Source: a virus. From it: a stretch of 31,607 nt of DNA. Numbering within the stretch: the first letter of the stretch is position 1; each line of letters opens with the position of its first letter. This document shows positions 123 through 13,870 of the stretch, piece by piece. The notes under the pieces are model-generated. The model was not told where the DNA came from, did not search any database, and saw nothing but the letters and a program-made list of their open reading frames with translations. Both the position numbers and the translations under genes were made by a program. The stretch spans positions 1 through 31,607 of IMG/VR virus record IMGVR_UViG_3300021347_000452. The stretch is one strand, 5' to 3'.

Positions 123-1124
123 ATGGATTTTATTGATGTAAAGTACATCAATCTGATATCCTCCAGACTTCCAAAATTTAAAAAGGTAAAACCAAACCTT
201 TATAACTTTCGGTGTCCCTGTTGCGGTGACAGTCAGAGACAGAAGAACAAGGCTAGAGGTTATCTCTACCGGGTCAAAAACAATACTAACTACAAGTGTC
301 ACAACTGTGGAATTAGTGTGTCCTTCAATAGTTTTTTAAAGGACTTAGATCCAGAGACACACAAACAATATATCTTTGAGAAGTTTAAGGACGGGAAGAC
401 AGGTAAGAACTTTGCTGCACAAACTCCTGAAGATATATTCAAAAAAGTTGAGACATCTAAACCAACTTTCAAGGAGAAAATCGTGATTGATTTACCAAGT
501 GCATTTCTTGTAAGTAGGTCTAAAGAATATCTAGAGACTAGAGCAATATTTCGTGGAGAGTTTTATTATGCTAAAAACTTCATGGAGTTTGTGAATACAA
601 TCAAACCAGATACGTTCAAGTCTACTCATTACGGCGAAGAACGAATCGTGATTCCTCTTATCAGGAATAACACACTTATAGGAGTTCAAGGGAGAGCACT
701 CTCTACGAACCCTATTAAATACTTAACCATTATGTTGGATGATGATGCCCCTAAAGTTTATGGACTTGACACAATTGATAAAAGACTGCCAGTCTATGTG
801 GTCGAAGGACCCTTTGACAGCACTTTCATCAGCAATAGTGTGGCTCTGTGTGGTAGTGACGGTGAAATTTGTGATCTTGAGAGAAGCGATAAAGTTTTTG
901 TATATGATAACGAGCCCCGTAATAAGGAAATTGTTAATCGAATTGAACGATGTATTGAACGAGGCGAAAGAGTCGTCATCTGGCCCACCAACATTATAAA
1001 GAAGGATATTAATGAATTAATTTTAGATGGTATGACTGAAAATGAAATAATGGAAATTATTAAAAATAATACTTACTTTGGTGCAATTGCTAAATTAAAA
1101 TTAAATCAATGGAAGAGATGTTGA
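123..1124 (+). CDS. 61: DNA primase, T4 gp61-like, with an element-supplied C-terminus
   Basis: This is the primase subunit of the T4-type replisome, which makes RNA primers together with the gp41 helicase. A four-cysteine zinc finger is visible (C31, C34, C59, C62). A Toprim-like core follows: VEGPFDS near residues 227-233 and an acidic YDNE near 261-264. From about residue 297 the DNA becomes markedly AT-rich, and the last 37 codons differ from a second, displaced gp61 tail found at 1738-1845. The present C-terminus was therefore probably brought in by the mobile element that follows. It still ends with a recognisable AKLK...W motif, so the primase should remain functional. The last 24 nt overlap the antisense endonuclease gene. 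Confidence 0.88.
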   Translation: MDFIDVKYINLISSRLPKFKKVKPNLYNFRCPCCGDSQRQKNKARGYLYRVKNNTNYKCHNCGISVSFNSFLKDLDPETHKQYIFEKFKDGKTGKNFAAQTPEDIFKKVETSKPTFKEKIVIDLPSAFLVSRSKEYLETRAIFRGEFYYAKNFMEFVNTIKPDTFKSTHYGEERIVIPLIRNNTLIGVQGRALSTNPIKYLTIMLDDDAPKVYGLDTIDKRLPVYVVEGPFDSTFISNSVALCGSDGEICDLERSDKVFVYDNEPRNKEIVNRIERCIERGERVVIWPTNIIKKDINELILDGMTENEIMEIIKNNTYFGAIAKLKLNQWKRC

Positions 1125-1740
1125 TATATTTGGGACACATTTAAGATGATGTTTTAAATTAGAACAAATGGTTTCTTTTTTACAAAATAAACAACAAAAT
1201 CTATCAGTTCTTTGTTTTTTAAAAAGTGGATGTTTTTCTCCCCTAATTCCAAACATTGGATTATTTGTTCCTTTCATCCTTTCTGAATGGTCTGGTCTTT
1301 TTCTTCTGGCGTGTGGTCTTGGAATACCTTTGGTTTTTTCACTTAATTTTTTATTTCTTTCTTTTGTGTGCTTTTTCCCAGAAAACCCAGATCCAAATTT
1401 ACCATTAGCAACTGCTATTGATTTATTAATATATAAAGGATTTTTATTTACATTTAATTGACGATGAATTTTTTCTTCTTTTTCATAAGCATCTTTTCTT
1501 TTTTTAAATTCCTTTATAATAATTGTTTTAAATAAATGTGGATTATTTTTAATTTCATTTTTCCAAATATTTCTATATTCTTCGGACATTACGGATCCGT
1601 GATATCCACCTTCAACTTTATCAATACTTGTTGACCCAATATAAAATGGAGGAAGATTATTTCCCTTATAAATTGTAAGGTAAACGCAATACATACCATA
1701 TCATTTATATCCTATTATTATTTATAAAAATTTATAATAT
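1011..1740. mobile_element. Homing-endonuclease element inserted in the gp61 3' end
   Basis: This insert of about 730 bp splits the ancestral primase gene at an Ile-Asn dipeptide: GATATT|AAT upstream, AAC GAT ATG downstream. It carries a recoded gp61 3' end, an antisense GIY-YIG gene and that gene's promoter/hairpin. The base composition is conspicuously AT-rich against the flanking DNA. The boundaries come from comparing the two gp61 tails and are good to a few codons. No splice-site logic or intron core was recognised, so it reads as an endonuclease cassette, not an intron. Confidence 0.7.
1101..1694 (-). CDS. GIY-YIG homing endonuclease with zinc-finger tail
   Basis: This 197-residue free-standing homing endonuclease lies antisense to the surrounding operon. 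The N-terminal GIY-YIG signature is CVYLTIY...FYIGST (residues about 3-22). It is followed by NUMOD3-type DNA-binding repeats (GKKHTKERNKKLSEKTKG near 105-122; GTNNPMFG and GEKHPLF further on). A C-terminal CLFC...H...HHLKC cluster looks like a zinc finger. Homing endonucleases of this family nick or cut a cognate allele so that repair copies the element in. Its stop codon lies inside the 3' end of gp61, and a minus-strand late promoter sits about 25 bp upstream of its start. The target is presumably an uninterrupted gp61 gene. Confidence 0.85.
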   Translation of the reverse strand: MYCVYLTIYKGNNLPPFYIGSTSIDKVEGGYHGSVMSEEYRNIWKNEIKNNPHLFKTIIIKEFKKRKDAYEKEEKIHRQLNVNKNPLYINKSIAVANGKFGSGFSGKKHTKERNKKLSEKTKGIPRPHARRKRPDHSERMKGTNNPMFGIRGEKHPLFKKQRTDRFCCLFCKKETICSNLKHHLKCVPNISTSLPLI

Positions 1741-1845: not shown

Positions 1846-3518
1846 GTAATGGATTAAAGGTTACTAAAAGAGACGGTAACATTGAAAAATTAGATCTCGA
1901 TAAGATGCATAAGATGGTGGAAGTTGCCACTGCAGGTCTTGCTGGTGTGTCTGCAAGTCAGGTTGAGATGACTTCTGGTATTCAGTTCTATGATGGTATT
2001 ACAACTGAAGAGATTCAGGAAATCCTTATTAGAAGTGCTTCTGATCTCATTGATCTAGACCATCCTAACTATCAGTTTGTTGCTGCCAGACTCCTTCTGT
2101 TCTCTTTGAGGAAAAGATTGTTTGGTAAGATGCATGAACTACCAAATCTGACAGATCATATCACCAAACTTGCATATGATAATGTTTATGATAAGGATAT
2201 TTTTGTTAAGTATTCTCTGGAAGAGATTCTAAAGGTAGAAACTTTTATTGATCATGATCGTGATTTTATGTTTACCTATGCCGGATTACGACAGGTTGTA
2301 GATAAATACCTAGTACAAGACAGGAGCACGGGTGAGGTCTATGAGACCCCTCAGTTTATGTACATTATGATTGCATTGACAATCTTCCGTGATTATCCTA
2401 AAGAAACCAGACTATCATATGTCAAACGATACTACGACGCAATCTCCAAACACAGAATCAACATCCCAACACCAATCATGGCCGGAGTTCGGACACCACT
2501 CCGTCAATTTGCATCTTGTGTTCTCGTTGATGTTGATGACACCCTCGATAGTATCTTTAGCAGTGATATGGCTATTGGTAAATACGTCGCACAAAGGGCT
2601 GGTATCGGTATTAACGCAGGCAGAATTCGCGGCATCAATTCTAAAATTAGAGGTGGCGAGGTACAACACACAGGTGTTGTCCCCTTCCTTAAAAAGTTTG
2701 AAAGCACTGTCAGATGTTGCACACAAAACGGTATCAGAGGTGGTTCTGCTACAGTTCACTTTCCTATCTGGCACATCGAAATCGAAGACATCCTAGTTCT
2801 TAAGAACAATAAGGGTACAGAAGACAACCGAGTGAGGAAACTTGACTACTCAATCCAACTTTCAAAGATTTTCTACGAACGTTTCATTACGGATGGAGAA
2901 ATTAGCTTGTTCTCACCGCATGACGTACCGGGCTTGTATGATTCCTTTGGTACTGATAGGTTCGATGACCTATATGTTGGTTTTGAACGAGATGAGTCTA
3001 TTCCAAGAAAGACTGTCGGTGCACAAGAACTCTTTCTAGATCTTCTGAAAGAGAGAGCAGAGACTGGTCGTATCTACATTATGAATATTGACCATTGCAA
3101 TAGCCACTCTTCCTTCAAAGATAAGGTGAACATGAGTAATCTTTGTGTTGCTGGTGATACTAAAATTAAGGTGAGAATTACTACTTCCAAAAAAGTTGAT
3201 GGTAATACAATAGAAACAACTCGTCTCCCTCCTCTTGTAATTGAAATGCAACAACTTGAGGAACTTATTAAAGAAGGTCTTTCTTTAGAACTTGTAGAGG
3301 TTCTTTCTATGGATATTGATACTGCAAATCGTGAAATTGATTATCATCAAATTACTGCATTTGCTCAGACTTCACCTAAGGCAAAAGTAATGAAAATTAC
3401 TGATGAAGAAAGTGGTAAGAGTATTGTTGTTACTCCAGATCATAAAGTTTATACCAAAAATCGTGGATATGTAATGGCAAAGCATCTTAAAGAAACTGAC
3501 ATTCTAAATATTATTTGA
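1842..3518 (+). CDS. nrdA: Ribonucleotide reductase large subunit, N-terminal half fused to N-intein
   Basis: Residues 1-434 are the N-extein of class Ia NrdA, which reduces ribonucleoside diphosphates for phage DNA synthesis. They include an ATP-cone-like N-terminus and the redox cysteine C226 (E. coli C225 equivalent, in FASCVLV). They end at SNL, just before the thiyl-radical cysteine. Residues 435-558 are an N-intein. Block A begins CVAGDTKIKV and block B carries TPDHKVY with the conserved Thr and His. The ORF then stops. The partner half lies at 4244-5344 after an endonuclease gene. The start overlaps the displaced gp61 stop (ATGA). Protein trans-splicing would be needed to make an active enzyme; the extein sum is 767 residues, close to a normal NrdA length. 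Confidence 0.93.
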   Translation: MSNGLKVTKRDGNIEKLDLDKMHKMVEVATAGLAGVSASQVEMTSGIQFYDGITTEEIQEILIRSASDLIDLDHPNYQFVAARLLLFSLRKRLFGKMHELPNLTDHITKLAYDNVYDKDIFVKYSLEEILKVETFIDHDRDFMFTYAGLRQVVDKYLVQDRSTGEVYETPQFMYIMIALTIFRDYPKETRLSYVKRYYDAISKHRINIPTPIMAGVRTPLRQFASCVLVDVDDTLDSIFSSDMAIGKYVAQRAGIGINAGRIRGINSKIRGGEVQHTGVVPFLKKFESTVRCCTQNGIRGGSATVHFPIWHIEIEDILVLKNNKGTEDNRVRKLDYSIQLSKIFYERFITDGEISLFSPHDVPGLYDSFGTDRFDDLYVGFERDESIPRKTVGAQELFLDLLKERAETGRIYIMNIDHCNSHSSFKDKVNMSNLCVAGDTKIKVRITTSKKVDGNTIETTRLPPLVIEMQQLEELIKEGLSLELVEVLSMDIDTANREIDYHQITAFAQTSPKAKVMKITDEESGKSIVVTPDHKVYTKNRGYVMAKHLKETDILNII

Positions 3519-3523
3519 TTTTT

Positions 3524-3577
3524 ATAGGGAGTGTAATGTCTATATTTTATAAATAGTTATGAGATTATACTTCCTAT
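3524..3577 (+). promoter_or_regulatory. Inverted repeat enclosing a late promoter, before the intein-site endonuclease
   Basis: The arms 3524-3537 and 3564-3577 form 14 pairs (two G.U). After one mismatch there are two further pairs. The loop contains the late promoter TATAAATA at 3548-3555. The right arm ends two bases before the endonuclease ATG at 3579. Read-through transcripts from nrdA would form the hairpin next to the start codon, while transcripts begun at the late promoter would lack the left arm. This is the logic known for T4 I-TevI; here it is inferred from sequence. Confidence 0.75.
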
Positions 3578-3578
3578 T

Positions 3579-4250
3579 ATGAAAACATATATTGTGTATA
3601 AAATTACCAATAAGAAAAATAGAAAATCTTACATAGGAAAAACTGAATACTCTTTGGAGCATCGTTGGTCTCGTCATTTATCATCAGCAAGAAATGGTTC
3701 TAAATTTAGATTTCATTCGGCAATTAGAAAATATGGAGAAGATTGTTGGGAATTATCTGTGATTGAAACTTACCAAACTAAAGATGAAAACCTTATCAAT
3801 GAAAAGGAAACTCATTTTATCAAACTATTTGAGAGTTATACTAAAGGTTATAATGCCACTTCAGGTGGAACTGGTGGATGGATGCTTCCAAGATGCTCGC
3901 AGCAGGTTCAGGAACAGTGGAGAAATGATATTTCTATAAGAACTACTGGTTATAATAATCCAAACCATTCTGGATACACTGATGAAGAACTTGTAGAAGT
4001 AGGTGTAAAGTTTGCTAAAAAATATGGATTTATTGGTGGTAGAAAAAGAATAGTTGAGTTTGCTTTTAATGAATTGAATATAAAGTTTCCAAAACACTTT
4101 TCTAAAAATAGATTTGGAGGAGACTATAAAAACTTTTATAAATCTATTGAAGAACAAACTGGATTGGTGTATAATCCTTATTATAGAGACGAAACTCAAA
4201 GAAAACTTGCTAAACAACTTTTAGAACAAAATAGGAGAAAAAAATGTTAA
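3579..4250 (+). CDS. GIY-YIG homing endonuclease inside the fractured nrdA
   Basis: This 223-residue protein has a clear GIY-YIG domain: YIVYKITN...SYIGKT at residues 4-22, HRW near 28-30, and a conserved Glu in INEKETHFIKLF near 73-84. The second half has no repeat I can name; it holds Lys/Arg-rich helices and presumably binds DNA. It sits between the two halves of the split NrdA intein. Its 3' end overlaps the ATG of the C-intein ORF by 7 nt (4244-4250), so the two are probably translationally linked. It is the likely agent that moves or once moved the intein locus. It should be expressed late, from the promoter at 3548. Confidence 0.85.
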   Translation: MKTYIVYKITNKKNRKSYIGKTEYSLEHRWSRHLSSARNGSKFRFHSAIRKYGEDCWELSVIETYQTKDENLINEKETHFIKLFESYTKGYNATSGGTGGWMLPRCSQQVQEQWRNDISIRTTGYNNPNHSGYTDEELVEVGVKFAKKYGFIGGRKRIVEFAFNELNIKFPKHFSKNRFGGDYKNFYKSIEEQTGLVYNPYYRDETQRKLAKQLLEQNRRKKC

Positions 4251-9718: not shown

Positions 9719-10426
9719 ATGCTTGTAGACGATTCTTTAGTATTTGACAATAATGTTTTTGAAATAAACGAAGACCCAATAATTACTACAATCGATACCG
9801 AGATTGCTAAGATAACAACGATTGATAACTTTTATAAGGATGTAGATGGGGTTATAGCACAACTTCCAAAAATGCCTATAAGTTTAATCTGGGAACAACC
9901 AGATAATAACAAAACTTTTATTGATGCAAGAAAAGTATACCAATCAAATATGCGTGGGACAACACTTCCCTATGCATTTGATGGGTCATTACATACATTG
10001 TTGTCAAATATCATTGAATTTCCTCCAGAAAGAATGGATGTCAGTAAAGAATTTATTGTAAATTGTTTTTCATATACTGAAGACTTTGAATCATTTCTAA
10101 AGGACAACTGGTATGGGTGTCATCGAGACGACCACGACATTCTTCCACTGAATGGTGTTCCTGCTACAGGTCAAGTTGCGATTGTTGTTTTTCTAAATGA
10201 ACACTATGAGGAAGGTGAAGGAATGAACTTCTATGACGTTCCACCTGGTGTAAAAACAAACATTCGTTCTAAAAAATCTGAAGTTAAACAGATACATAGT
10301 ATACAGGGTAAAAAGAATCGTGCAGTTCTTTTTGACTCTCAGTTTCCTCACGGACAACACACACCAACAACTCAGTTCAAGAATGAAATGAGATACACTC
10401 AGGTCATTTTCGTTCCATTGTACTAA
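9719..10426 (+). CDS. Probable 2-oxoglutarate/Fe(II)-dependent oxygenase
   Basis: This 235-residue protein has a double-stranded beta-helix oxygenase pattern. The iron ligands would be H135-x-D137 (GCHRDDHD) and H211 or H214 (FPHGQHTP), with R225 (MRYTQVIF) well placed to bind 2-oxoglutarate. GEGMNFYDVPPG between them fits the core strands. 2OG oxygenases are frequent in marine T4-like cyanophages, but their substrates are mostly unknown. The gene follows the lysozyme-like gene by 3 nt and ends just before the promoter at 10432. Confidence 0.7.
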   Translation: MLVDDSLVFDNNVFEINEDPIITTIDTEIAKITTIDNFYKDVDGVIAQLPKMPISLIWEQPDNNKTFIDARKVYQSNMRGTTLPYAFDGSLHTLLSNIIEFPPERMDVSKEFIVNCFSYTEDFESFLKDNWYGCHRDDHDILPLNGVPATGQVAIVVFLNEHYEEGEGMNFYDVPPGVKTNIRSKKSEVKQIHSIQGKKNRAVLFDSQFPHGQHTPTTQFKNEMRYTQVIFVPLY

Positions 10427-10431
10427 GGCCC

Positions 10432-10460
10432 TTGACACCCGTCAGGGTTTACCCTATACT
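10432..10460 (+). promoter_or_regulatory. Sigma-70-type early promoter
   Basis: Perfect -35 TTGACA (10432-10437), 17-bp spacer, -10 TATACT (10455-10460). It lies right after the oxygenase stop and faces the HNH/tRNA region. Confidence 0.8.
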
Positions 10461-10465
10461 ATAAA

Positions 10466-10532
10466 GGTGGTTGAGAGACCACTGCTGTGACCCCCTTGGT
10501 AGTTCAGGGTTAGAGGCGATAGGAACCAGGTC
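10466..10532 (+). other. Leader between tandem promoters, possible tRNA-like relic
   Basis: The transcript from the first promoter would begin with a small hairpin (GTGGT-TGAGAG-ACCAC). It is followed by CCCCCTTGGTAGTTCAGG and GTTAGAGGC, which resembles the acceptor/D-arm of a tRNA and, loosely, the tRNA-Arg downstream of the HNH gene. No T-arm or anticodon arm follows. It may be a degraded tRNA end or simply a structured leader. Confidence 0.3.
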
Positions 10533-10561
10533 TTGACAGAACCTCTGACTTGATATATAAT
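10533..10561 (+). promoter_or_regulatory. Second sigma-70-type early promoter
   Basis: TTGACA (10533-10538), 17-bp spacer, TATAAT (10556-10561): a full consensus promoter. Transcription would begin a few bases before the HNH gene's ATG at 10581. Confidence 0.85.
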
Positions 10562-10580
10562 ATTGGTTGGAGGTTCAGTT

Positions 10581-11048
10581 ATGAATTCATGTTTGGAATG
10601 TGCCAGTCCCACAAAGAATGCAAAGTTCTGTTGTAGAAGTTGTGCCACATCACACAATAACAGGGCCAGACCAAAACGCAAACCAGAACATAGGTGTGTG
10701 GATTGTGGAAAACCCATAAATGCCAAGAGAGCCCGTTGTAGAGAACACTATGAAATCTGGAGACAGAAACAGGTAGTGGAGGATATGACCCTCTCTGAAG
10801 CCATCTATACCAAACATCACAGGTCTTCTGCGTATGCTTTGGTTAGAACACGCGCCAGAGCCGCCGCCAAGAAATTGGGACTTGACAAATGTCAGAAGTG
10901 CGGTTATGATAAACATGTAGAGATAGCTCATGTCAAAGGCATCTCTACTTTTGAGGGACACACTCTCCTTAGTGTGATAAACTCTCAGAATAATCTGATG
11001 GCATTATGTCCTAATTGTCATTGGGAATTTGACAACTTGCCCCAGTAG
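10581..11048 (+). CDS. HNH endonuclease ending inside tRNA-Arg
   Basis: This 155-residue protein starts at ATG 10581; an upstream TTG at 10563 is less likely. Two N-terminal Cys clusters look like zinc ribbons (CLECASPTKNAKFCCRSC and CVDCGKPINAKRARC). The C-terminal HNH domain reads CQKCGYDKHVEIAHVKGIS...NLMALCPNCHWEFDN, with the zinc cysteines and catalytic His visible. It is transcribed from a consensus early promoter. The last codons, Pro-Gln-stop, are read from the first bases of tRNA-Arg(TCT), so the gene and the tRNA overlap by 10 nt. It is a probable homing endonuclease lodged at a tRNA gene. Confidence 0.82.
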   Translation: MNSCLECASPTKNAKFCCRSCATSHNNRARPKRKPEHRCVDCGKPINAKRARCREHYEIWRQKQVVEDMTLSEAIYTKHHRSSAYALVRTRARAAAKKLGLDKCQKCGYDKHVEIAHVKGISTFEGHTLLSVINSQNNLMALCPNCHWEFDNLPQ

Positions 11049-11113
11049 CTCAGTCTGGATCAGAGCATCGCACTTCTAATGCGTTGGCCGGGAGTTCAAA
11101 TCTCTCCTGGGGT
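11039..11113 (+). tRNA. tRNA-Arg (anticodon TCT)
   Basis: It is a complete cloverleaf of 75 nt. Acceptor GCCCCAG/CTGGGGT has a G.T at the first pair. D-arm is GCTC/GAGC. The anticodon arm TCGCA-CTTCTAA-TGCGT has TCT at 11075-11077. The T-arm is GGGAG-TTCAAAT-CTCTC. No CCA is encoded. It reads AGA codons, which are common in these genes. The HNH gene stop lies within its 5' end. Confidence 0.88.
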
Positions 11114-11117
11114 GTTA

Positions 11118-11189
11118 GCTCGAATAGTTCAGAGGTAGAACACTTGATTTACATTCAAGTTGTCGGGGGTTCGATCCCCTCTTCGAACA
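11118..11189 (+). tRNA. tRNA-Val (anticodon TAC)
   Basis: It is a 72-nt cloverleaf. Acceptor GCTCGAA/TTCGAAC has one C-A mismatch at the second pair. D-arm is GTTC/GAAC. The anticodon arm CTTGA-TTTACAT-TCAAG has TAC at 11150-11152. The T-arm is GGGGG-TTCGATC-CCCTC and the discriminator is A. It starts 4 nt after tRNA-Arg, so both are likely processed from one transcript. Confidence 0.87.
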
Positions 11190-11211
11190 TGTCGTATCAA
11201 TCTAATGAATC

Positions 11212-11460
11212 ATGTTAGTTATCAGATGCAAAAATTGTAATACGGAACTTACGAGTTCTCCAAAGACTCAGACATGTGGTTGTCCTAATAACACCACACT
11301 TACTGATGATAAGATTTCTGCTGTTGATTTATCTAAAGTATTGATTGTATCGAACAATAAACTTGATGATAGTCATAATATATTGACCGCAGCAGACTTG
11401 ATGTATCAGGAACAAAGACGTAGACGTAAGGTAAAGAGACTTGACTTTGAAGTCAGGTAA
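11212..11460 (+). CDS. Small zinc-ribbon protein
   Basis: This 82-residue protein has an N-terminal four-cysteine ribbon (IRCKNCNTELTSS...CGCPNN). A middle segment and a very basic tail follow (QEQRRRRKVKRL). A truncated paralogue with the same ribbon (IRCRSCGKELEGH...CCGCPN) starts at 31499. The role is unknown; the ribbon and basic tail suggest nucleic-acid or protein binding. It begins 22 nt after tRNA-Val. Confidence 0.6.
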   Translation: MLVIRCKNCNTELTSSPKTQTCGCPNNTTLTDDKISAVDLSKVLIVSNNKLDDSHNILTAADLMYQEQRRRRKVKRLDFEVR

Positions 11461-11466
11461 CAGTAC

Positions 11467-11474
11467 AATAAATA
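11467..11474 (+). promoter_or_regulatory. Late promoter
   Basis: AATAAATA lies 18 bp upstream of the Phd-like gene's start at 11492. Confidence 0.5.
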
Positions 11475-11491
11475 AATCAACTACAAATGAG

Positions 11492-11665
11492 ATGATGGAA
11501 GTCTTTACGGTGAAAGAGTATCAAAATCGTTGGGATGAGTTGATGGAAAGGGTAGAGAATGGGGAGACTTTTGGTATAGTCAATGAGAACGGACAGGCTG
11601 CTGTAATGATGCCTGCTGATGATGATACTCTGCGAATATACACAGAACACAACGAAGGTTCTTAA
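11492..11665 (+). CDS. Phd/YefM-like antitoxin-fold protein, orphan
   Basis: This 57-residue protein starts MMEVFTVKEYQNRWDELMER; the ATG at 11495 is equally possible. The pattern is typical of the Phd/YefM DNA-binding antitoxin fold: a short beta strand, a helix over V-K-E, then VENGETFGIVNENGQAAVMMPA. No toxin gene of the Doc, YoeB or RelE type lies beside it. It could be an anti-host-toxin protein or a small repressor. The gene ends 11 nt before tRNA-Ile. Confidence 0.6.
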   Translation: MMEVFTVKEYQNRWDELMERVENGETFGIVNENGQAAVMMPADDDTLRIYTEHNEGS

Positions 11666-11675
11666 TGAAGCGAAA

Positions 11676-11747
11676 GGGACTATCGCATATTGGTTAATGC
11701 CCACTACTTATAACGGTGTGAACCGAGTTCAATTCTCGGTAGTCCTA
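11676..11747 (+). tRNA. tRNA-Ile (anticodon TAT, probable)
   Basis: It is a 72-nt cloverleaf. Acceptor GGGACTA/TAGTCCT has a G.T end pair. D-arm is GCAT/ATGC. The anticodon stem CACTA/CGGTG has an A-C mismatch next to the loop CTTATAA (TAT at 11709-11711). The T-arm CCGAG-TTCAATT-CTCGG is perfect. It would read AUA codons. The mismatch lowers confidence in function. Confidence 0.7.
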
Positions 11748-11831
11748 TTGGGTACAACAAGGAAAGTTGTATTAAACGAAGGGTCCCCTCTGCTGAATCG
11801 TAGATTATCGTGGTCAGACACCCTCGCCCAA
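11748..11831 (+). other. Structured non-coding stretch after tRNA-Ile
   Basis: I see no gene here. TTGGG (11748-11752) can pair with CCCAA (11827-11831). Inside lies a perfect hairpin TACAAC-AAGGAAA-GTTGTA (11753-11771) and a longer GGGT...ACCC arm with inner CTGA/TCAG. No standard tRNA can be threaded through it. It may be a spacer processed out of the tRNA precursor or a small RNA. Confidence 0.3.
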
Positions 11832-11835
11832 AAAC

Positions 11836-11894
11836 GCTTCTTTAGCAATCTGGTGAATGCAGCAGTGATTTGGGTTCAAGTCCCGGCAGAATCA
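11836..11894 (+). pseudogene. tRNA relic lacking the anticodon arm
   Basis: The D-arm region TAGCAATCTGGTGAATGCA (11843-11861) matches the same part of tRNA-Met/Ile2 at 12371-12389 in 18 of 19 bases. A T-arm TTGGG-TTCAAGT-CCCGG and an acceptor pairing in 5 of 7 positions are also present. Only 9 nt separate D-arm from T-arm, so the anticodon arm is missing. CAGTGATT and AATCACTG around the T-arm can form an alternative long hairpin. Confidence 0.6.
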
Positions 11895-11948
11895 CTGTCA
11901 AAATTTTCAAATTACTATATAATATATGTATAACGACATATCACCAGT

Positions 11949-12401
11949 ATGGTATTCTGTAAAGAGTGTGGAAAAGAAGTTCCACAAAGTTCAAAAAAGG
12001 GTGGAAGAAAAAAAGAGTATTGCAATGAAAGTTGTAGAAACAAATGGAGATACAAGAATGACCCTGTTGTCTACAATAGATATACAAACAATCCTTACTC
12101 TACACAGAAACAGAGGGCCTACAGAAACAAATGGAAGGCCCTACAAAGCAAAGGTGGTAAATGTATTCAATGTGGAGAAAGTCATCCAGCCAAATTATGT
12201 TTTCACCATAGAGAACCATCAAAAAAGGAACTTGAACTTGGTTCCAGAACATTTGCAAATAGAAAATGGGAAAACATAAAAGAAGAGGTTGACAAATGTG
12301 ACCTTTTATGTCATAATTGCCATCAAATGTTACACTATGGTGGTAGTTGGGATAAATTTTTAGGGGGGTCTAGCAATCTGGCGAATGCACCGAACTCATA
12401 A
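11949..12401 (+). CDS. HNH endonuclease ending in the tRNA anticodon loop
   Basis: This 150-residue protein has an N-terminal four-Cys ribbon (CKECGKEVPQ...YCNESC), a basic linker and a C-terminal HNH domain. The domain shows CIQCGESHPAKLCFHHREP with the HH pair, then KCDLLCHNCHQMLHYGG. The final 13 codons (GGSSNLANAPNS and the stop) are read through tRNA-Met/Ile2, and the stop TAA (12399-12401) lies in the anticodon loop. The gene lies between a tRNA relic with an almost identical D-arm and the intact tRNA, which suggests endonuclease-driven duplication of the tRNA. Confidence 0.8.
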   Translation: MVFCKECGKEVPQSSKKGGRKKEYCNESCRNKWRYKNDPVVYNRYTNNPYSTQKQRAYRNKWKALQSKGGKCIQCGESHPAKLCFHHREPSKKELELGSRTFANRKWENIKEEVDKCDLLCHNCHQMLHYGGSWDKFLGGSSNLANAPNS

Positions 12402-12437
12402 TTCGGCTAAAGGCGAGTTCGATCCTCGCGACCCCCA
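12364..12437 (+). tRNA. tRNA-Met or tRNA-Ile2 (anticodon CAT)
   Basis: It is a 74-nt cloverleaf with a perfect acceptor GGGGGTC/GACCCCC, anticodon arm CCGAA-CTCATAA-TTCGG (CAT at 12397-12399), T-arm GCGAG-TTCGATC-CTCGC and discriminator A. The first pair is G-C, so it is not an initiator tRNA. Whether it is elongator Met or lysidine-modified Ile cannot be settled by eye. Confidence 0.88.
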
Positions 12438-12439
12438 TC

Positions 12440-12459
12440 GGACAGTTCGCAGACTGTCC
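12440..12459 (+). terminator. Hairpin after the tRNA
   Basis: GGACAGT-TCGCAG-ACTGTCC is a perfect 7-bp stem just after the tRNA, followed by TCTTGAC, not a T-run. It is a weak terminator or a tRNA 3' processing boundary. Confidence 0.4.
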
Positions 12460-12461
12460 TC

Positions 12462-12490
12462 TTGACTCATACAGTCAAAACCCTTATACT
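12462..12490 (+). promoter_or_regulatory. Sigma-70-type early promoter
   Basis: TTGACT (12462-12467), 17-bp spacer, TATACT (12485-12490), 23 bp before the ATG at 12513. It is the same -10 variant as at 10455. Confidence 0.8.
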
Positions 12491-12512
12491 ACTAAGGTCA
12501 ACACGAAAGACA

Positions 12513-12728
12513 ATGACTATTACTTCTAAGTTCAAAAAAGACATCACAACTCTCCGGTCTGCAGCCAATGGGGAATTCTTCCTTGACGTAAAGAATCCAA
12601 AACTTTACAAGAAGGTTCGTAAATTTTATGAGAATGATGGTGTCACTTTTTCTGGTGATCCTCTCGATGATTATGATATTCTCATAGATTGTATTGCAGA
12701 AGACCTTGAAAGTGTGGAAGTTGGTTGA
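12513..12728 (+). CDS. Conserved small phage protein
   Basis: This 71-residue protein begins MTITSKFKKDITTLRSAANG and continues with KLYKKVRKFYENDGVTFSGDPLDDYD. From memory similar small proteins occur in other T4-like cyanophages; no function is known. It is mixed charged and probably soluble. It is first behind the early promoter at 12462 and its stop overlaps the next start (TGATG). Confidence 0.65.
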   Translation: MTITSKFKKDITTLRSAANGEFFLDVKNPKLYKKVRKFYENDGVTFSGDPLDDYDILIDCIAEDLESVEVG

Positions 12729-12964
12729 TGAAAGTTCTTCTAGAACATTTTCCTTATCGATACGTTGAGTGTGGTACATTGGAAATCAATGGTATGCCCG
12801 ACTATCGAATTCAAAAGGCAGACAGTTGGAGTAAACGTTACAGTGATATGTATCTGTGCGATAACCAGATGCAAATGTTGACCGCAATGGAAGACCTAGA
12901 CTATACGAAATGGTTAGATCCGGCAGGAGTTCCTTGTTATGTAAGGGACAGAGTTTTTAGATAA
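12728..12964 (+). CDS. Hypothetical protein
   Basis: This 78-residue ORF starts at ATG 12728, overlapping the upstream TGA by one base. It is rich in Tyr, Asp and Trp (HFPYRYVECGTLEING, DNQMQMLTAMEDLDY). No domain is recognised. Co-transcription with the upstream gene is likely. Confidence 0.6.
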   Translation: MKVLLEHFPYRYVECGTLEINGMPDYRIQKADSWSKRYSDMYLCDNQMQMLTAMEDLDYTKWLDPAGVPCYVRDRVFR

Positions 12965-12965
12965 T

Positions 12966-12973
12966 AATAAATA
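12966..12973 (+). promoter_or_regulatory. Late promoter
   Basis: AATAAATA lies 22 bp upstream of the ATG at 12995. Confidence 0.55.
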
Positions 12974-12994
12974 GAACAGATTTGTATTTCGATT

Positions 12995-13249
12995 ATGTCT
13001 AGTAGAAAAACATCAGATACTGGAGCATATATGTCTCAGTATGATCAGGAAGTGGAAACCAGACTTAAGGCTCTTGAGGCTGGTGTCAAAAAGGTTAGGG
13101 AAGAAGTTCAAAAAAAGAATTCCGCCCCTGCCGTAACTGCTCCTGCTCCGGTTAGTGGTGATCTAGAAGCCAAAGTAGACTTGTTACTTAGTATTCTAAA
13201 ACAGGCACCTGGTCTTAATATTGAAAAACTGTCTAAAGGTAAACTCTGA
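12995..13249 (+). CDS. Small coiled-coil-like structural candidate
   Basis: This 84-residue protein has a helical, charged N-terminal half (YDQEVETRLKALEAGVKKVR), an Ala/Pro/Val-rich hinge (SAPAVTAPAPVSG) and a short C-terminal helix (LEAKVDLLLSILKQ). The layout suggests two helices joined by a flexible linker, as in small virion or assembly proteins. The late promoter upstream agrees. Function unknown. Confidence 0.55.
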   Translation: MSSRKTSDTGAYMSQYDQEVETRLKALEAGVKKVREEVQKKNSAPAVTAPAPVSGDLEAKVDLLLSILKQAPGLNIEKLSKGKL

Positions 13250-13302
13250 TATGAGTTTCTTGCTTCTCTAAAGTGCAAGTGGCTCGGCATGAACCCTATA
13301 CT

Positions 13303-13331
13303 AGGAGGTCTTGACAAAGGCCTCCTTTTTT
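13303..13331 (+). terminator. Rho-independent terminator
   Basis: AGGAGG (13303-13308) pairs with CCTCCT (13321-13326), followed by a T-run to 13331. The loop contains TTGACA, the -35 box of the next promoter. Confidence 0.8.
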
Positions 13332-13357
13332 AATACAATACATACAGAGATATTGTA
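13311..13357 (+). promoter_or_regulatory. Early promoter of the glycan island, with operator-like repeat
   Basis: TTGACA (13311-13316), 17-bp spacer, TACAAT (13334-13339). The -35 lies in the loop of the preceding terminator and the spacer in its right arm. TACAATA (13334-13340) and TATTGTA (13351-13357) form an inverted repeat over the -10 and start site, a possible operator. Confidence 0.7.
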
Positions 13358-13366
13358 ATTATTCAT

Positions 13367-13870
13367 ATGAAGATTGGTTTTAACTGTAGTTCCTTTGACT
13401 TGTTTCATGCAGGACATGTGACAATGTTGAAGATGGAAAAAGAACTATGTGATTATCTTGTAGTTGCTCTTCAGGTTGATCCTACTATTGATAGACCAGG
13501 TATCAAAAACAAACCCACCCAGAGTGTGTACGAGAGGTATGTTCAACTCCAAGGTTGTAAGTATGTTGATGAGATCTTGGTGTATGAAACTGAAGATGAT
13601 TTGTTGAACATGATCAAGACACAGAGGATGGATATTCGGTTCTTGAGTGAGGAGTATAAGGACAGAGACTTCACTGGAAAAGAATATTGTATTGACAATG
13701 GTATCGAGATCCATTATCACTTGAGACGACATAAGTATTCTTCTACTGAACTCCGTAAACGAGTTTATACCCTAGAGAAACAGAGGTTGGATAAACTTAA
13801 ACAGGAACCTGAAGTCAGAGAACCTGCACAATATTCCACAGATATTCTAAAAAAATACGAGGTAAAATGA
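13367..13870 (+). CDS. TagD-like cytidylyltransferase
   Basis: This 167-residue nucleotidyltransferase has the HxGH motif (FHAGHVTML, H14 and H17) and the SSTELR motif near 125-130. Both are typical of glycerol-3-phosphate cytidylyltransferases and related CTP enzymes. The core ends at about 133; the remaining 34 residues are a charged extension not usual in TagD. It would make a CDP-activated polyol or sugar precursor. It is the first gene of the glycan island and overlaps RmlB by 4 nt (ATGA), indicating one operon. Confidence 0.8.
   Translation: MKIGFNCSSFDLFHAGHVTMLKMEKELCDYLVVALQVDPTIDRPGIKNKPTQSVYERYVQLQGCKYVDEILVYETEDDLLNMIKTQRMDIRFLSEEYKDRDFTGKEYCIDNGIEIHYHLRRHKYSSTELRKRVYTLEKQRLDKLKQEPEVREPAQYSTDILKKYEVK

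Follow-up and report, generated by a model that had tools for sequence, protein, structure and literature searches.

Homing endonucleases acting on transfer RNA (tRNA) regions are already known, and the reason for the abundance and changeability of phage tRNA genes is an open question. In the T-even phages, SegB is encoded between tRNA genes (tRNA-Arg/tRNA-Ile in T4/T6), cuts inside tRNA genes at the motif RAWTSGAAC and drives inheritance of the tRNA region, and the 3' end of segB shares microhomology with a tRNA 5' end (PMC13096335); segB also has a late promoter with a hairpin masking the ribosome-binding site (PMC2988022). I-Ssp6803I is a homing endonuclease acting on a tRNA gene (cited in PMC3984707), T4 MobA moves as a mobile DNA cassette together with a 50-nt bypass sequence (Bonocora et al. 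2011, as cited in PMC8300805), and a role in spreading tRNA genes has been proposed for the HNH genes found in the tRNA clusters of mycobacteriophages (PMC6409571). Here, we describe two HNH endonuclease genes, HNH1 and HNH2, which both end inside a tRNA gene of a viral contig from IMG/VR (IMGVR_UViG_3300021347_000452; 31,607 nt, the whole of which is called the window). The 31.6-kb contig is that of a marine T4-like cyanophage, its nearest named records being the Synechococcus phages S-B43, RB11-B and S-SM2. A preliminary description of this DNA had pointed to T4 SegB as a precedent for tRNA-linked homing. We propose, with a probability of roughly 0.7, that each locus is a mobile cassette in which a free-standing gene for an HNH homing endonuclease is paired with the tRNA behind it, and that this cassette took the place of a resident tRNA.

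HNH genes and their tRNAs at filled and empty sites

tRNAs were called with ARAGORN and Rfam, and protein families were assigned with Pfam and PHROG; the loci compared carry L numbers. At the HNH2 site, the window was compared with L002, a phage without HNH2 that is 99.0% identical over 11162-11861 and 96.8% identical from 12371 on. The intact tRNA-Met of L002 reads GCTTCTTTAGCAATCTGGTGAATGCA followed by CCGATCTCATAA, and the window keeps exactly those first 26 nt. The same 26-mer begins an intact tRNA-Met in 17 of the 17 contigs in which it was found, mostly at the same locus. The complete tRNA-Met behind HNH2 has different acceptor ends (GGGGGTC...GACCCCC in the window vs GCTTCTT...AAGAAGC in L002), and downstream of it the flanks of both phages agree again. 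Because the remnant, the new tRNA-Met and the matching L002 flanks are all in place, HNH2 evidently broke the resident tRNA-Met after the D-arm and brought a complete replacement tRNA-Met along. Together with the adjoining foreign piece, the remnant scores 18.4 bits as a degenerate tRNA in Rfam. Positions 11836-11894 were considered as a working or permuted tRNA, which was rejected because the first 26 nt are those of a severed L002-type tRNA-Met. An exact-match search of IMG/VR with the foreign stretch on the left of HNH2 returned no copy, and its origin was not found.

At the HNH1 site, the left boundary is formed by a conserved leader, of which 29 nt (10498-10526) recur exactly in 55 cyanophage contigs of IMG/VR. 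Behind these 29 nt stands HNH1 in the window, L002 and L003, and tRNA-Arg(UCU) follows directly in almost all others. Compared with the near-identical empty phage L106, the window shows 91.8% identity up to 10526 and 94.5% from 11114, with everything between replaced; relative to L106, HNH1 and tRNA-Arg have evidently been swapped together, as a unit. The same unit stands out in the comparison with L004, where the block 10540-11116 (hairpin, HNH1 and tRNA-Arg, ~577 bp) is 89% identical vs 70-78% for the flanks, and the right end of the block falls at most 2 nt from the end of tRNA-Arg. The tRNA-Arg bodies share 97-98% among the window, L002 and L004, whereas their best match to an HNH-free tRNA-Arg is 88%. 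L003, which carries HNH1, has a different tRNA-Arg, and therefore recombination inside or beside the tRNA occurs too. The comparison of insertion points, which the preliminary description had suggested as a check, thus places HNH2 inside tRNA-Met after the D-arm, and HNH1 at nucleotide 1 of tRNA-Arg (junction AACTT/GCCCC), where relatives are empty.

The leader itself, ACTGCTGTRACCCCCTTGGTAGTTCAGGGTTAGAGGCGATAGGAAC(TACC), lies immediately 5' of a tRNA and also precedes tRNA-Pro in S-SM2, Bellamy and L082. As RNA, it shows no unusual stability on folding, and its 3' end was altered by the HNH1 insertion in the window and L002. In L062 (3001-3168), an HNH1 remnant comprising the final 55 codons is left, with tRNA-Arg still attached.

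HNH1 belongs to the HNH class by Pfam match (HNH_2, 28.3 bits with a cut-off of 21), by its invariant residues (CxxC, H117, N138, CPNCHW) and by fold, the nearest to its predicted structure (predicted local distance difference test score 88.6) being the Gme HNH nicking endonuclease, with a probability of 0.97 but an E value of 0.07. HNH2 was assigned by PHROG and has no Pfam HNH match. The ratio of nonsynonymous to synonymous substitution rates is ~0.1 for HNH1 and for HNH2, and purifying selection evidently acts on both. Both genes are free-standing: they are present or absent at sites with the same flanks, and the Rfam matches in 10400-13400 include no intron family and so no group I intron (RF00028). 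Only the relative in L026 is intron-encoded.

Upstream of HNH1, a predicted hairpin (-21.8 kcal/mol, z -3.4) masks the GGAGG ribosome-binding site, which is free in the predicted fold without the 5' arm. The promoter-like TTGACA-N17-TATAAT lies inside the hairpin, and therefore a transcript from there would have an accessible ribosome site. Relatives keep the hairpin although their sequence differs (z -3.0 to -6.8), and in several of them the loop contains TATAAATA. The same layout has been reviewed for T4 I-TevI, I-TevII, I-TevIII and segB and for Aeh1 mobE (PMC2988022), and a promoter inside the hairpin that masks the ribosome site probably keeps HNH1 expression in check, in the manner of the T4 homing endonucleases. 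This arrangement, common but not universal in free-standing homing endonucleases, is found at HNH1 and not at HNH2.

In the proposed mechanism, the HNH endonuclease would probably cut the tRNA gene of a co-infecting phage, and repair would copy the cassette in, exchanging the resident tRNA for the endonuclease gene with its accompanying tRNA. This end state, an HNH gene plus tRNA in place of the resident tRNA, is observed in the empty-site comparisons; we infer that repair drove its spread, and the unit looks like one spread by homing. The family-wide link to tRNAs, the relatives lying in anticodon loops, the purifying selection, the hairpin and promoter of HNH1 and the named phages with such endings also speak for the cassette, with SegB as supporting context. 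As judged from the aligned alleles, the tRNA is cargo of the mobile unit, besides being its probable target. Alternatively, the HNH genes may merely hitchhike: insertions in tRNA clusters would be harmless, general recombination would shuffle tRNAs together with their neighbours, and the overlap would mark the nearest stop. In line with this, the tRNA genes at the two sites are more variable than the flanks even between HNH-less phages, U8-A9-G10 is a built-in stop (TAG in 343 of 612 distinct tRNAs in the loci retrieved), and the tRNA-coded residues are under no constraint. Several further points weigh against the cassette. The linked tRNA is swapped along with the HNH gene, but cluster tRNAs are exchanged between phages also where the gene is absent, and therefore ordinary recombination could carry the HNH1 block. 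At the left junction of HNH1, no more than 4 nt of an old tRNA are left (in L003), which could be chance, ~18 of 63 HNH1-family members have no recognised tRNA within the limits used, and no hairpin lies upstream of HNH2 in the window (fold z 0.03). Moreover, the contigs compared are metagenome assemblies, and HNH1 and HNH2 are both rare in the set. Hitchhiking is nonetheless unlikely in our assessment, given that in several lineages the HNH gene joins its tRNA with single-nucleotide precision, that the family is linked with Arg(UCU) above the cluster average (nearest tRNA of 16 of 59 HNH1-family members vs 9 of 256 others; p = 2e-7), that relatives interrupt tRNA anticodon loops, and that HNH2 broke a tRNA yet brought a replacement.

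tRNA turnover was also considered as a scar specific to HNH1, which was not supported, as other tRNAs of the cluster vary as well; a few near-zero identities in this cluster comparison are an end-gap artefact of the alignment settings.

HNH genes ending within tRNA genes

The two endings that the preliminary description had reported, one in the first bases of tRNA-Arg and one after half of tRNA-Met/Ile2, were both found as stated. The HNH1 stop codon TAG (11046-11048) is U8-A9-G10 of tRNA-Arg(UCU), an overlap of 10 nt, and the HNH2 stop codon TAA (12399-12401) is T36-A37-A38 in the anticodon loop of tRNA-Met(CAU), an overlap of 38 nt. The latter is private to the window genome. The HNH2 relatives in L082, L083 and S-SRM01 (gp048) end 28 nt earlier, with U8-A9-G10 of tRNA-Met as their stop; a one-nucleotide shift at a G-run puts the window gene out of phase with them, and therefore reading would continue to the anticodon loop. 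As a conserved design, the half-tRNA overlap was rejected because relatives stop at tRNA nt 8-10. In the S-SRM01 record (L087, NC_070963), a tRNA-Met at 3411-3483, found by Rfam and ARAGORN, lies directly behind the HNH gene gp048; the record's features omit it, together with tRNA-Ile 2865-2954 and tRNA-Leu 3526-3598.

To gauge the frequency of such endings, relatives of HNH1 were taken from IMG/VR (63 loci once dereplicated). A stop codon falls inside a tRNA in 23 of the 63 loci vs 13 of 333 other open reading frames (ORFs) of at least 100 aa in the same loci (Fisher p = 5e-12), a contrast that is approximate because the control ORFs are mechanical calls. The HNH/tRNA overlap is beyond chance. 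Among the 23 members, 20 overlap by at least 4 nt, and 11 lie on the same strand as the tRNA and 12 on the opposite strand; among the overlapped tRNAs are those for Arg, Met, Lys, Ile and Leu. In opposite-strand members, the C-terminal tails are translated antisense tRNA, such as RIELGLQV in L070. Relatives of HNH1 or HNH2 that end in tRNAs also sit in deposited records, namely, besides S-SRM01 gp048, ORF44 of Felix O1 (in tRNA-Ile, 7 nt overlap), gp64 of Henu11 (in a tRNA, 7 nt) and gp101 of crAss001 (in tRNA-Gly, 14 nt). The partnership of endonuclease and tRNA recurs in many unrelated phages. By eye only, G1 is the third codon base in several same-strand lineages, a suggestive phase preference.

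The overlap most plausibly means that a gene abutting a tRNA borrows its stop codon; it is mostly a by-product, with nothing to suggest that the added residues matter. This reading follows from several observations: the tRNA-coded residues vary and lie beyond the fold, relatives stop at the TAG, and TAG is common at positions 8-10. In the proposed cassette, the HNH gene would abut tRNA nucleotide 1 without a stop of its own, and the ORF would usually terminate at U8-A9-G10 because about half of phage tRNAs have a stop codon in that phase. The last residues change with the tRNA (NLPQ, NLPR, NLPL, NLGK, NLPA), and the last predicted helix of HNH1 ends at residue 152 of 155. A function of the tRNA-coded C-terminal residues was rejected, as they vary freely past this helix. 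The preliminary description had suggested that using the tRNA as 3' coding sequence would place the endonuclease gene exactly at its target; insertion at tRNA genes is supported, whereas a functional 3' coding role seems not to be, the final pair (PQ, PR, PL, GK or PA) following whichever tRNA is present. It had also reasoned that shorter products in relatives would mark the overlap as incidental. Such products do exist for HNH2, in keeping with a by-product, but the excess of tRNA endings over the control ORFs speaks against mere chance.

Removal of the stop codon by RNase P is a possible regulatory consequence of the overlap. In a stronger version, the overlap itself would be selected: RNase P cleavage at tRNA nucleotide 1 would remove the HNH stop, so that a transcript yields either tRNA or HNH message and the nuclease stays low. 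The stop indeed lies 3' of the expected cut in the window, L002-L005, L007, L024, L062, L063, L082 and L087, but in the close relatives L010 and L018 the stop precedes or coincides with the first tRNA position, and the idea cannot apply to opposite-strand members, which overlap tRNA 3' ends; we regard it as quite improbable. A broader proposal, which we hold to be doubtful, is a widespread class of homing elements with endonuclease and tRNA as one unit, in which the tRNA would serve as homology, cargo and stop, RNase P would strip the stop and make the products mutually exclusive, and the nuclease would spread and replace tRNAs. If true, nuclease and tRNA would exclude each other on one transcript. 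That an integrase-like event used a tRNA as attachment site, leaving the tRNA copies on both sides as attachment repeats, is hardly credible: two tRNA-Met 5' parts flank HNH2 as in tRNA-targeting islands, but no integrase is among the ten proteins scanned at 9.0-13.9 kb, the insert of ~0.5 kb holds an HNH gene only, and the flanking tRNA copies differ in sequence.

Related insertions, a rewired tRNA-like RNA and neighbouring features

Relatives of HNH1 also occur at interrupted tRNAs. In L026 (2853-3529, minus strand), a group I intron (RF00028, 54 bits) sits in the anticodon loop of tRNA-Arg, with an HNH1 relative antisense inside it. In L081 (3557-3766, minus strand), a group I intron (RF00028, 69 bits) occupies the anticodon loop of tRNA-Met(CAU), and an HNH1 relative lies directly beside it, next to a transfer-messenger RNA gene. 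In L028 (~1480-2080), an antisense HNH gene together with a tRNA-Arg-like gene splits a tRNA in its anticodon loop or close to it, and the joined halves of the split tRNA give tRNA-Leu(UAA); L041 (~2870-3520) shows a similar split and is the weaker case.

A widespread tRNA-Arg(UCU)-like RNA has a rewired D-arm topology: its anticodon arm is enclosed by a 3-bp stem and is followed by the D-loop motif TAAYTGGA. Besides the examples in Table 1, it is found in L017, L019, L023, L028, L029, L033 and L041. Across 11 sequences, pairing in the enclosing helix is 100%, its variable pairs occurring as 4 and 3 pair types, and both-side changes occur in 16 of 20 pairs overall, which was reached by 0 of 500 shuffles. 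Single-sequence folding does not favour the rewired topology. An exact-pattern scan returned 55 IMG/VR contigs (L164-L218; 42 distinct, a few repeating contigs already named), 10 of which have an HNH1-family gene within 1.2 kb. Our literature search found no description of this RNA.

Between tRNA-Val and tRNA-Ile, the window carries a Phd-like antitoxin ORF (11441-11665; PHROG, 47.6 bits), which occupies the same position in related cyanophages and has no obvious toxin partner beside it. In L002 (3535-3746) and L086 (2481-2691), the manA RNA motif (RF01745) stands directly 3' of tRNA-Arg, a place taken by tRNA-Val in the window.

Table 1. Positions of the features at both loci (window numbering unless a locus is given) and of the rewired RNA.
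Feature	Position	Strand	Basis or remark
Conserved leader, resident	10480-10526	+	Left boundary of HNH1 insertion; precedes tRNA-Arg in relatives
HNH1 promoter within hairpin	10533-10577	+	TTGACA 10533, N17, TATAAT 10556; stem arms 10539-10549 / 10566-10576
HNH1, HNH endonuclease, 155 aa	10581-11048	+	Pfam HNH_2, PHROG HNH families; N-terminal zinc-finger motifs
tRNA-Arg(UCU), part of putative HNH1 cassette	11039-11114	+	ARAGORN; Rfam 62 bits
tRNA-Val(UAC), resident	11118-11189	+	ARAGORN, Rfam; homology with empty phage L106 restarts at 11114
tRNA-Ile(UAU), resident neighbour of HNH2 site	11676-11747	+	ARAGORN, Rfam
Remnant, first 26 nt of resident tRNA-Met	11836-11861	+	Exact 5' part of intact L002 tRNA-Met
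Foreign stretch between remnant and HNH2	11862-11948	+	Resembles T-arm and 3' acceptor strand of another tRNA, then promoter-like stretch
HNH2, HNH endonuclease ORF, 150 aa	11949-12401	+	PHROG HNH family, 94 bits
tRNA-Met(CAU), evidently arrived with HNH2	12364-12437	+	ARAGORN; Met or Ile2
Rewired tRNA-Arg(UCU)-like RNA	L012 2873-2948	-	
Rewired tRNA-Arg(UCU)-like RNA	L014 2871-2945	-	
Rewired tRNA-Arg(UCU)-like RNA	L155 (Erwinia phage Ep030) ~595-680		
Rewired tRNA-Arg(UCU)-like RNA	L156 (Felix O1) ~1570-1655		

Comparison with known systems

A literature search of partial coverage found no description of HNH/tRNA overlap or of replacement by an endonuclease together with a tRNA, and the consulted part of the Felix O1 paper (PMC3185647) is silent on the overlap, although ORF44 resembles the window genes in ending in a tRNA gene, as do Henu11 gp64, crAss001 gp101 and S-SRM01 gp048. 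Stop-codon sharing explains why gene callers report HNH genes overlapping tRNAs, and it provides a sequence signature for finding endonuclease-tRNA units in genomes. If a nuclease moves about with a tRNA that displaces the resident copy, tRNA turnover would have a selfish and testable cause in addition to codon usage and evasion of defences.

Of the known systems, T4 SegB and I-Ssp6803I come nearest to the window genes. Like SegB of T4/T6, the window enzymes would be free-standing homing endonucleases of a tRNA region, and HNH1 shares with segB a promoter and a hairpin masking the ribosome-binding site. SegB differs in being a GIY-YIG enzyme, whereas both window proteins match HNH families, and a coding overlap with a tRNA is not reported in the portions of the SegB literature consulted, while the window genes do overlap. 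I-Ssp6803I is likewise a homing endonuclease with a tRNA-gene target, the target of the window enzymes being a probable one, but it is an intron-encoded PD-(D/E)xK enzyme, whereas the window genes are free-standing HNH genes without an intron. For the mycobacteriophage HNH genes, the proposal was made, in the part of the source consulted, from presence alone, without empty-site comparison or shared coding sequence. The T4 MobA cassette is similar in that a homing endonuclease gene travels with a functional passenger sequence; in the window, however, an entire tRNA gene is the passenger, and it contains the end of the endonuclease ORF.

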